Shown: positions 1,195-7,117 of the stretch, piece by piece
Numbering within the stretch: position 1 is the stretch's first letter
Layout of the letters: every line of letters starts with the position of its first letter
Origin: Candidatus Aenigmatarchaeota archaeon
GTDB taxonomy: Archaea > Aenigmatarchaeota > Aenigmatarchaeia > GW2011-AR5 > WALA01
Direction of reading: 5' to 3'
NCBI GenBank assembly: GCA_015523085.1
Contig: WALA01000033.1
Coordinates: 1 to 10,950, forward strand
DNA length: 10,950 bases
Notes under the pieces: model-generated
What the model saw: the letters and a program-made list of their open reading frames with translations, nothing else
Told to the model about the DNA's origin: nothing
The model's database searches: none
Translations under genes and position numbers: made by a program

Positions 1195-2157
1195 ATGAAG
1201 ATAATTCACTACGACAGGAAAAGCGGCGAAATGAAACTCTCCGTGGAGACGCTTGACGATCTGTGGATGCTCAAAGACATCATTCAAAAAGGAGATGTCC
1301 TTAAGGGAAGCACAGTTCGGAGCATAGACATGTCAGGCAAGAAAGAGCGCCGCAAGATTTTCGTCGTTCTCGAGGCCGAGAAGTCGTCGTTCGGCTCAGA
1401 CGAACTCCGTGTTCAAGGACTCATAAAAGAGGCGTCCGAGGACATTCCACACGGCCATCACACGTTCGAGGTGCGCGTCGGCGATGTTTTCACGCTGGTT
1501 CACAAATGGAAGGATTACGAGATTGAACGCATACGGAGCTCATCGCACAAAATAAATCCCATTCTTGTCTGCGTTCTCGACGACGATGAGTGCGATGTTT
1601 TCGAGGTGTCGACGCGGATAAGGCGTCTTGCCCACTTCTCCGGAAGCTCCGGGAAGATGTATGCATCCGACAACGAGAAATATTACAAGGACATAATAAA
1701 CTTCCTGAAAAGCTCGGAAATCGAAACGGTTGCCATTGTCGGACCCGGATTCGCAAAGGAGCGCGTTTACAAAGGCCTGGAAAAGAAAAAATACATCGAC
1801 TCCGTGTCATCCACGGGCATAGTCGGACTCAACGAGGCGATTCGGCGCGGAATACTCAAAAGCGTCATGCGCGATTCAGAAATATCAAAGGACACGGATA
1901 TGATTGAAAAATTCTTCACGGAGCTCAAGAAAGACGGTCTCGTCGTTTACGGACGCGATGAAACCCTAAGAGCACTTGAAAATGGTGCAGTCGACATGCT
2001 TCTCATTTCCGATAGAATACTCCGCGAAAACGAAGACGTTCTCGAGAAGGCGAAACAGATGAGAACGAAAATACACATAATTTCCTCAAAGCATCCGAGC
2101 GGCGAGCAATTTTACAACTTCGGCGGCATAGGCGGATTCCTGAGATTCAAGTTGTGA
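1195..2157 (+). CDS. pelA: Pelota/Dom34 mRNA-surveillance and ribosome-rescue factor
   Basis: The 320-residue product is an eRF1 paralogue that, with an aEF1A-type GTPase and ABCE1, enters the empty A site of stalled ribosomes and splits them. The N-terminal Sm-like domain spans about 1-125, starts MKIIHYDRKSGEMKL and has the family's VGDVFTLVHKWKDYEIERI stretch at 95-113. The central domain (about 125-235) lacks the GGQ peptide-hydrolysis motif, as expected for Pelota rather than aRF1. The C-terminal domain (about 236-320) includes VVYGRDETLRALENGAVDML at 250-269 and ends with the characteristic HPSGEQFYNFGGIGGFLRF at 300-318. Length is slightly below the usual 340-360 for archaeal Pelota but all three domains are present. 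The start fits a TATA box 26 bases upstream and no ribosome-binding site, so a leaderless mRNA. It seems to be transcribed alone. Confidence 0.95.
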   Translation: MKIIHYDRKSGEMKLSVETLDDLWMLKDIIQKGDVLKGSTVRSIDMSGKKERRKIFVVLEAEKSSFGSDELRVQGLIKEASEDIPHGHHTFEVRVGDVFTLVHKWKDYEIERIRSSSHKINPILVCVLDDDECDVFEVSTRIRRLAHFSGSSGKMYASDNEKYYKDIINFLKSSEIETVAIVGPGFAKERVYKGLEKKKYIDSVSSTGIVGLNEAIRRGILKSVMRDSEISKDTDMIEKFFTELKKDGLVVYGRDETLRALENGAVDMLLISDRILRENEDVLEKAKQMRTKIHIISSKHPSGEQFYNFGGIGGFLRFKL

Positions 2158-2987: not shown

Positions 2988-3046
2988 TTCTGCATCTAAA
3001 TGAATTAATCAAATGCGGAGGTAGCCAAGTTGGTCAAAGGCGCTAG

Positions 3047-3081
3047 ATCTTGAGTGTTGAGCGAAAAGCCGTGAAAGTGAA
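3047..3081 (+). other. tRNA-Leu intron 1 (35 nt, position 30/31)
   Basis: BHB reading: central helix CGCT (3041-3044) with AGTG (3076-3079), one G-U pair. The 5' bulge is AGA (3045-3047), cut AG|A; the 3' bulge is AAA (3080-3082), cut AA|A. The outer helix is only G3040-C3083 and G3039-U3084, so this is a relaxed BHB. A competing perfect 10-bp duplex (3046-3055 with 3082-3091) spans the 3' junction. This is the least certain of the five introns. Confidence 0.65.
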
Positions 3082-3088
3082 ACTCAAG

Positions 3089-3133
3089 ATCAACTTGTCC
3101 GTGAGCCATAAGGCAAGAGATGGCTTATGGGAT
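3089..3133 (+). other. tRNA-Leu intron 2 (45 nt, canonical position 37/38)
   Basis: BHB reading: central helix CTCA (3083-3086) with TGGG (3128-3131), one U-G pair. The 5' bulge is AGA (3087-3089), cut AG|A; the 3' bulge is ATA (3132-3134), cut AT|A. The outer helix is the anticodon stem once intron 1 is removed, since the 5' half is otherwise separated by 35 nt. Both bulges are identical to those of the tRNA-Cys intron. Inside, CCATAAG (3106-3112) and CTTATGG (3124-3130) form a 7-bp hairpin that partly competes with the central helix. Confidence 0.72.
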
Positions 3134-3147
3134 ATCTAGTCCCTTAG

Positions 3148-3172
3148 AGAATCGCCAACAGCGTTCGAGGAA
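3148..3172 (+). other. tRNA-Leu intron 3 (25 nt, in the variable arm)
   Basis: This is a clean BHB. The inner helix is GAA..CGC (3149-3155, one bulged T) with GCGTTC (3161-3166); the central helix is CCTT (3142-3145) with GAGG (3167-3170), one U-G pair. The 5' bulge is AGA (3146-3148), cut AG|A; the 3' bulge is AAT (3171-3173), cut AA|T. Removal turns a 40-nt variable region into an ordinary 15-nt leucine variable arm with a CCC/GGG stem. Confidence 0.85.
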
Positions 3173-3213
3173 TGGGTTCGTCGGTTCGAATCCGGCCCTC
3201 CGCATATTTCTTT

Positions 3214-3287
3214 GCACCGATGGTCTAACCTGGTTAGGACACGAGCTTCCCAAGCTCGTTATCCGGGTTCAAATCCCGGTCGGTGCA
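3214..3287 (+). tRNA. tRNA-Gly(CCC)
   Basis: The acceptor stem is GCACCGA/TCGGTGC with discriminator A at 3287. The D stem is GTCT/GGAC, the anticodon stem CGAGC/GCTCG and the loop TTCCCAA with anticodon CCC. The T arm is CCGGG-TTCAAAT-CCCGG. The gene is 74 nt, with no intron and no encoded CCA. It lies nine bases after tRNA-Leu, probably cotranscribed, and ends eight bases before the stop of the convergent membrane-protein gene. Confidence 0.96.
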
Positions 3288-6255: not shown

Positions 6256-6425
6256 GCGGGCGTGACAGAACGGCCATGTGACCGGCTGCAGAGAAACCCT
6301 TTCTTAGAAAGAAAGGGTTTCATCGGAAAGAACAGCCACCCGATCTCTTGGAGAGAAAGGGTTTCGAAGAAGAGCAAAAACGTCGCAGATACCGGTATAA
6401 CCCGGTTCGACTCCGGGCGCCCGCT
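6256..6425 (+). tRNA. tRNA-Cys(GCA) with a 99-nt intron
   Basis: Acceptor arms GCGGGCG (6256-6262) and CGCCCGC (6418-6424) pair perfectly, with discriminator U at 6425 as expected for cysteine. The D arm is ACA-GAACGGCCA-TGT (6265-6279), the anticodon stem ACCGG (6281-6285)/CCGGT (6392-6396), the loop CTGCAGA with anticodon GCA, the variable loop ATAA and the T arm CCCGG-TTCGACT-CCGGG. Removing 6292-6390 leaves a 71-nt tRNA. TTAATAAAT at 6222-6230, overlapping the galT stop, is a likely TATA box. No CCA is encoded. Confidence 0.94.
6292..6390 (+). other. tRNA-Cys intron at 37/38 with a strong internal hairpin
   Basis: The BHB is textbook. The outer helix is the 5-bp anticodon stem; the central helix is CTGC (6286-6289) with GCAG (6385-6388). 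The 5' bulge is AGA (6290-6292), cut AG|A; the 3' bulge is ATA (6389-6391), cut AT|A. Inside, 6293-6305 and 6309-6321 form a perfect 13-bp hairpin with a 3-base loop. GAAAGGGTTTC occurs twice (6311-6321 and 6355-6365), so the 5' arm can pair with either copy. A second small stem is ATCGG (6322-6326)/CCGAT (6340-6344). I see no C/D or H/ACA box. Confidence 0.9.
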
Positions 6426-7025: not shown

Positions 7026-7117
7026 GCCTCGGTAGCTCAGTTGGTAGAGTGGCTGCCTCGTAAGGAATTGGGTGTCGGGACAGCAGCAGGTCGAGGGTTC
7101 GAGTCCCTCCCGGGGCT
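7026..7117 (+). tRNA. tRNA-Thr(CGU) with a 19-nt intron
   Basis: The acceptor stem is GCCTCGG (7026-7032)/CCGGGGC (7110-7116), with one U-G pair and discriminator U at 7117, as in archaeal threonine tRNAs. The D arm is GCTC-AGTTGGTA-GAGT, the anticodon stem GCTGC (7052-7056)/GCAGC (7083-7087), the loop CTCGTAA with anticodon CGU and the T arm GAGGG-TTCGAGT-CCCTC. Removal of 7063-7081 leaves 73 nt. The tRNA ends one base before the stop of the convergent PfkB gene. No CCA is encoded. Confidence 0.95.
7063..7081 (+). other. tRNA-Thr intron (19 nt, position 37/38)
   Basis: BHB: outer helix is the anticodon stem, central helix CTCG (7057-7060) with CGGG (7076-7079), one U-G pair. The 5' bulge is TAA (7061-7063), cut TA|A; the 3' bulge is ACA (7080-7082), cut AC|A. 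The inner part is a 12-base loop with little pairing. It is the only one of the five introns without AG|A at the 5' cut. Confidence 0.87.

Follow-up and report, generated by a model that had tools for sequence, protein, structure and literature searches.

Why an archaeal tRNA-Leu gene should be interrupted three times, once at the non-canonical position between nucleotides 30 and 31, is the question raised by one locus in the 10,950-nt stretch analysed here (the window). The window is the entire contig C33 of genome G000 (431,682 bp in 65 contigs, 80.8% complete), which belongs to an archaeon of the Aenigmatarchaeota (DPANN), in agreement with the first-pass annotation, where the surrounding genes had been judged non-crenarchaeal. 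Among the genomes searched, the only other member of the genus is G001 (Candidatus Aenigmatarchaeota archaeon, contig WALQ01000015.1).

The anticodon-stem halves, CTAGA (3043-3047) and TCTAG (3135-3139), are separated by 87 nt, and 40 nt make up the variable region (3140-3179), as first described. Default ARAGORN without introns misses the gene. Removal of 3047-3081, 3089-3133 and 3148-3172 leaves 85 nt that ARAGORN, with introns disallowed, calls tRNA-Leu(caa); eight forms were tried in total, and under the same setting neither the unspliced form nor any of the six with one or two introns removed was called. The proposal of three introns of 35, 45 and 25 nt, with middle exon pieces of only 7 nt (3082-3088) and 14 nt, was therefore correct in its boundaries. 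With introns allowed, ARAGORN recovers the 35-nt or the 45-nt intron unaided once the other two have been taken out. A single-intron reading was rejected: with introns allowed, the program gives Ser(tga) for the window gene and Lys(ctt) for its copy in G001, both of them miscalls. When the orthologue in G001 is spliced at the three corresponding junctions, it too is called Leu(caa), and 84 of its 85 exon bases are identical. Its flanks are also shared, with pelota and a hypothetical gene upstream and tRNA-Gly(CCC) and a Yip1-like gene region downstream. The gene and its neighbours are laid out as follows.

1195..2157, forward strand: pelota gene, syntenic upstream neighbour (eRF1_1 and eRF1_3; 93% identical in G001)
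3015..3204, forward strand: tRNA-Leu(CAA) gene, whole precursor (Rfam RF00005, 38.8 bits; spliced form called Leu(caa); orthologue in G001)
3015..3046, forward strand: exon 1, with acceptor, D arm and positions 27-30 (spliced-form calls)
3047..3081, forward strand: intron 1, position 30/31, 35 nt; box C/D-like predicted Cm34 guide (motif, covariation and splicing tests)
3082..3088, forward strand: exon 2, 7 nt (positions 31-37, ACTCAAG), with C34 at 3085
3089..3133, forward strand: intron 2, canonical position 37/38, 45 nt (complementary central helix 3083-3086/3128-3131)
3134..3147, forward strand: exon 3, 14 nt (spliced-form calls)
3148..3172, forward strand: intron 3, variable arm, 25 nt (central helix 3142-3145/3167-3170; junction common to Leu(UAG), G015 and G022)
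3173..3204, forward strand: exon 4, with the end of the variable arm, T arm and acceptor (spliced-form calls)
3041..3079, forward strand: intron 1 central helix CGCU/AGUG, 3041-3044/3076-3079 (CGCA/UGCG in nine relatives)
3214..3287, forward strand: tRNA-Gly(CCC), intact, syntenic downstream neighbour (tRNA searches with ARAGORN and Rfam; synteny in G001)

Two further tRNA genes of the window are interrupted when ARAGORN is run with introns allowed. The tRNA-Cys(GCA) gene (6256-6425), missed by Rfam and by the default tRNA search, has a 99-nt intron similar to a portion of the one found in a tRNA of G001 (L117), and tRNA-Thr(CGT) (7026-7117) has a 19-nt intron.

All three introns of the tRNA-Leu(CAA) gene have AG^A as their 5' junction. 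The first-pass annotation described a 4-bp central helix flanked by 3-nt bulges at every junction; the helices are indeed complementary throughout, with one G-U pair apiece, but only intron 3 comes near a strict bulge-helix-bulge. The inner helix of intron 1 is weak, and intron 2 has no inner helix adjoining its 5' bulge. The central helix of intron 3 is present in the constrained lowest-energy fold, and that of intron 1 appears only if forced. The sequence of intron 2 is altered in G001 with its hairpin retained, and the G-U pair of its central helix becomes A-U there. The window gene is a pre-tRNA-Leu(CAA) with three bulge-helix-bulge-type introns, the motif being relaxed in introns 1 and 2.

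A possible reason for intron 1 lies in a perfect 10-bp inverted repeat (3046-3055/3082-3091), identical in G001, which makes the intron antisense to the anticodon loop of its own precursor. The elements that accompany it are the following.

3047..3056, forward strand: guide sequence preceding the D-like box (3047-3055, with exon base 3046, antisense to 3082-3091)
3057..3060, forward strand: D-like box UUGA, one nucleotide beyond the antisense (D1-C5 covariation)
3061..3069, forward strand: 2-bp kink-turn stem and loop (GC GAAAA GC), followed by a 3-nt bulge at 3070-3072 (sequence)
3072..3076, forward strand: C-like box UGAAA, in which A3076 pairs with U3057 in the guide fold or U3044 in the splice fold

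We take the order of UUGA, 2-bp stem-loop, 3-nt bulge and UGAAA to be a kink-turn layout with D and C boxes, in which sheared G-A pairs would be expected. The stem-loop layout is the same in G001 and similar in some other guides, while others have plain loops. G3052, five nucleotides upstream of the D-like box, pairs with C34 (3085), and by the target rule the nucleotide at this distance marks the methylated base (PMC2584109). The boxes depart from the CUGA and RUGAUGA consensus given in the same source, reading UUGA and GUGAAAG in the window; the guide of G004 has CUGA with UGAUG. The 35-nt intron holds one motif pair only, in place of a C/D and C'/D' set, and Rfam lists no C/D family here. 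Motifs of this type in intron 2 were rejected for the window, where they cannot be read, unlike in G001. All 23 genomes tested have a fibrillarin match above the cut-off, G000 among them (G000:C42:9881-10522, E 1.2e-86); the frame in G012 contains two stops. Intron 1 thus looks like a compact box C/D-like guide, predicted to give Cm34 of its own tRNA, and such an antisense element aimed at C34 may be the reason for the intron that the first-pass annotation missed.

The motif was then followed across genomes. A pattern search for the 30/31 intron in 156 genomes of the class gave 15 places, two of them not tRNA, leaving 13 tRNA-Leu(CAA) genes. An intron-blind Leu(CAA) pattern gave 58 places, of which 46 were examined (30 loci, and 16 of 28 others picked by eye as tRNA-like); 11 of the 30 and three of the 16 were discarded as not tRNA-Leu or stemless. 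The 32 remaining genes comprise 26 with a 37/38 intron and six without an intron beside the anticodon. Both patterns need exact letters and so miss variants. Antisense is present in 12 of 13 introns at 30/31 and the full guide motif in 11, where dinucleotide shuffles, which leave shared ancestry in place, expect 1.7 and 0.006; at 37/38 the counts are 16/26 and 9/26, against 4.3 and 0.02 by the same shuffles. The full motif is absent from 17 of the 26, including all nine intron-bearing genes of family f11. Since the 3' stem half is repeated within the guide, the 37/38 boundaries in G062 and G009 were placed manually; the boundary in G068 was extended by A38.

Covariation provides further evidence. 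The D1-C5 pair (U3057-A3076 in the window) is Watson-Crick in 37 of 39 guides, preselected for antisense and a D-like box and drawn from related genomes that are not independent; shuffled pairing gave a mean of 18.9 and never reached 37 in 100,000 trials. The C box was defined, blind to D1, by the first UGA lying 3 nt or more beyond D, and the pairs are T-A (24), A-T (9) and C-G (4). An additional pattern search that feeds this set is weak alone (82 places in 67 of 156 genomes, against 42 for the reversed-pattern control), and its loci were used only with a scripted stem and T arm (25/30), minus two that were unconvincing (L218, L242) and five duplicates. In the tRNA-Trp intron of G001, Trp being the known positive control, the first C-like box gives a C-A pair, not a Watson-Crick one.

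In G000 and G001, the fifth nucleotide upstream of D falls on C34 in all six precursors of Leu(CAA), Met(CAT) and Trp(CCA), and in none of the 12 other intron-containing precursors examined, a scan that included a single copy each of Leu(UAA) and Arg(CCT). Registers elsewhere were seen in Arg(CCT), at position 31, and in Ser(TGA), at position 39 and without a C box. Met(CAT) was assigned by reading, as ARAGORN with introns called it Ser. A pattern for a C34 guide after a CAT anticodon loop matched 78 places in 72 of 156 genomes, against nine in the control; among the loci read (L245-L274), 26 of 30 lie in a tRNA context and 23 of these have a Watson-Crick D1-C5 pair, a count biased by choosing the best C box. 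The matches are presumably introns of elongator tRNA-Met, although initiator Met and Ile(CAT) were not separated.

As a separate observation, the tRNA-Arg(CCT) introns of G000 (L014, G000:C21:4988-5098) and G001 (L128) have the same kink-turn layout, with CUGA and UGAGG. The antisense is AGGAGGTGAT, and its own-tRNA register in the G000 copy is the position 31 given above. AGGAGGTGAT would also match the 3' end of 16S rRNA.

The 30/31 intron is distributed over families f1, f3, f4 and f15 (13 genes). Its central helix is complete in 11 of the 13 and has three of four base pairs in G017 and G004; the letters are CGCU/AGUG in the window's genus (two genes) and CGCA/UGCG in nine others. The same three introns occur at the same positions beside pelota in G015 and G022 (f3), where the variable-arm intron keeps its hairpin with different letters. 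In G000 and G001 the Leu(UAG) paralogue contains the variable-arm intron as well. Read by eye, the tRNA-Leu(CAA) genes of G028 and G021 have introns in the D loop, at 30/31 and at 37/38, and those of G002, G007 and G012 (f2) have other introns and none at 30/31. Unusual insertions were noted along the way: D-loop insertions in tRNA-Leu(CAA) run to well over 100 nt in G021 (L097) and G025 (L161), and the gene beside pelota in G002 (L089/L145) has a T-loop intron, so that T-arm based tRNA finders miss it. The D box is broken in G015, the 30/31 intron of G063 has no guide, and G007 keeps the antisense with the D box lost. Because of the broken D box in G015, the guideless intron of G063 and the 17 of 26 37/38 introns without the full motif, the guide must be dispensable somewhere.

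In other families the same guide is located in the 37/38 intron, and two genera hold both arrangements: in g35 the guide is at 30/31 in G053 and at 37/38 in G062, and in g4 at 30/31 in G004 and at 37/38 in G009. Alignment of these pairs shows matching intron bodies and a 7-nt exon, ACTCAAG, that has switched sides. A short upstream piece of flank is common to G053 and G062; between G004 and G009, coding sequence matches on either side. The switch may have occurred by tandem duplication of the exon piece and intron, followed by loss; if so, the odd 30/31 position would follow from the duplicated or moved piece being positions 31-37.

Folding of the precursor with its acceptor and T stems constrained gives the guide:target fold as the best one (-67.1 kcal/mol), with the central helix of intron 3 formed. 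Forcing the central helix of intron 1 gives -63.0 kcal/mol, and a 10-bp helix between the D arm and 3088-3097 then arises unforced.

3026..3097, forward strand: possible switch helix, D arm 3026-3035 with 3088-3097, which spans the exon 2/intron 2 boundary

The helix might act as a fold switch. Its U3030-A3093 pair is replaced by C-G in G001, a single double change between two genomes, and the fold energies do not model kink-turns. If intron 2 were removed first, a 14-bp hairpin would lock intron 1. Some nucleotides take part in both the guide fold and the splice fold of intron 1; the two folds are mutually exclusive, so methylation and cutting would have to be sequential.

The explanation we consider probable, on sequence evidence, is that this three-intron pre-tRNA carries in intron 1 a C34 guide that would methylate before splicing. 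The 5' part of intron 1 would pair with the precursor's own anticodon loop, and L7Ae, Nop5 and fibrillarin would assemble on the single D/C kink-turn. C34 would be 2'-O-methylated, the precursor would shift to the splice fold, and an alpha-only splicing endonuclease would remove the introns.

The strongest alternative, though we think it unlikely, is that the guide acts solely in trans, on other precursors, once it has been excised as a circular intron (in which the order becomes C box, guide, D box). The tRNA-Trp intron guide has been shown to act between molecules (reviewed in PMC7994747 and PMC4090602), and trans action would be feasible here because the spliced tRNA still presents all ten target bases. 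A guide acting exclusively in trans fits poorly with guide and target remaining adjacent in cis on whichever side of the target the guide lies. It is a good deal less probable that the introns are three ordinary ones and the antisense hairpin of intron 1 is passive, masking the anticodon or pacing splicing. Such a hairpin is part of the lowest-energy fold, antisense by itself is seen in 16 of 26 37/38 introns, and G007 kept it after loss of the D box. However, a passive hairpin needs neither a fixed spacing to a UGA-type box nor the covarying D1-C5 pair (37/39), nor a C34 register that, of the precursors scanned in this genus, only those of Leu(CAA), Met(CAT) and Trp show.

The enzyme that would excise these introns was sought by profile searches. 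PF01974 finds no match in G000 (81% complete) and one in G001, a 194-aa single-domain subunit of alpha type; a hidden beta or epsilon subunit of G001 was rejected, as no second match turned up with PF01974 at E values up to 0.1, nor with PF02778 at values up to 10. The search covered 12 genomes that carry the 30/31 intron, all but G063; in 11 of them a single endonuclease match, no more, passes the cut-off and lies in an open frame of 180-241 aa, a single-subunit length, and G000 has none. The best solved-structure match of the G001 protein is 1A79, the M. jannaschii alpha4 enzyme, listed as narrow in specificity in Table 1 of PMC6379350. Given that listing, either the introns are good enough substrates or this alpha enzyme, probably a homotetramer, is broader. 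The first-pass annotation had suggested a broad-specificity epsilon-2 endonuclease of the ARMAN type, which now appears very improbable. The loop after YYG in G001 is four residues longer than in the 1A79 enzyme and equals the ARMAN-2 specific loop in length (ungapped), and within the order two f6 genomes possess an extra frame of 410-418 aa with two matches, but the single match of single-subunit length in 11 of 11 searched relatives and the lack of a second subunit in G001 by PF02778 argue against it.

Other features of this enzyme family were also recorded. The two-match frames of f6 (G006:C50, G011:C2) stand beside a single-domain alpha, and other families also contain frames of 404-455 aa. 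At the second Lys of the RKK stretch of 1A79, possibly the catalytic Lys, G001 and many of the relatives read have Arg and others Lys (L076 1307-1891, reverse strand; L016-L045).

That the locus is a decayed pseudogene is hardly credible, despite its unusual length and the failure of ARAGORN to find it, as the exons are kept almost unchanged in G001, the introns covary, and no second intact Leu(CAA) gene, which the first-pass annotation had named as a sign of decay, was found in G000 (81% complete) or G001 by the patterns used. The Leu D-arm pattern in G000 matches only Leu(UAG) and the window gene. An ARAGORN 'Leu(caa)' call at G000:C39 (L008) was rejected, being an intron-containing Gly(TCC) when read by eye.

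The C34 guide reading of intron 1 gives a non-canonical tRNA intron a job, and with it a testable reason for its retention. If true, it would extend intron-encoded guides from Trp, and the suspected Nanoarchaeum Met, to Leu(CAA) in many genomes of a DPANN phylum. The locus also offers an apparent case of an intron that changes its insertion site yet keeps its target, and it shows three-intron tRNAs co-occurring with single alpha-type endonucleases, though the review lists alpha4 as narrow (PMC6379350). A wider proposal, which we judge slightly less likely than not, is a self-editing pre-tRNA: the wobble-C tRNAs of Aenigmatarchaeota, Leu(CAA), Met(CAT) and Trp, would carry minimal, single-kink-turn C34 guides in their own introns, the Leu(CAA) guide intron would hop between sides of the 7-nt exon, and the D-arm/intron 2 helix would expose the splice fold to the alpha-only enzyme after methylation.

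Several known systems invite comparison. In the literature searched, from which subscription journals were mostly absent, no report of an intronic Leu(CAA) guide was found. PMC4090602 describes the archaeal tRNA-Trp intron as a unique example, and PMC2584109 states that Trp guides are always intronic and Met guides always exonic. Like the archaeal pre-tRNA-Trp guide (Cm34, Um39), the intron antisense described here meets its own C34 at the fifth nucleotide upstream of the D box. Unlike it, the guide sits in a Leu tRNA, with one motif pair, one target and non-consensus boxes, in a 35-nt intron at non-canonical 30/31, upstream of the target. In the tRNA-Met of Nanoarchaeum equitans, a C/D sRNA lies in a 66-nt intron and its guide role is suggested only as potential (PMC3491384); that case shares a DPANN host and a C34 tRNA whose intron harbours a C/D-like RNA, the tRNA here being Leu. 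A separate, free-standing Pyrococcus sRNA is predicted to target C34 of tRNA-Leu(CAA). It shares the predicted target nucleotide but is not an intron of its target, as only the Trp guide is among the four named in PMC7994747. Compared with ARMAN-2 and its epsilon-2 endonuclease, the YG loop of G001 has the same length, but the enzyme is a single-domain alpha and not three fused units. Multiple-intron tRNAs are known from Thermoproteales, such as the tRNA-Pro of Pyrobaculum islandicum, and 30/31 is a listed position (PMC4090602). The present gene resembles that tRNA-Pro in having three introns at non-canonical positions, and differs from Thermoproteales in its DPANN host, in a genus where only an alpha-type endonuclease was found, and in having one intron with what seems to be a second job.
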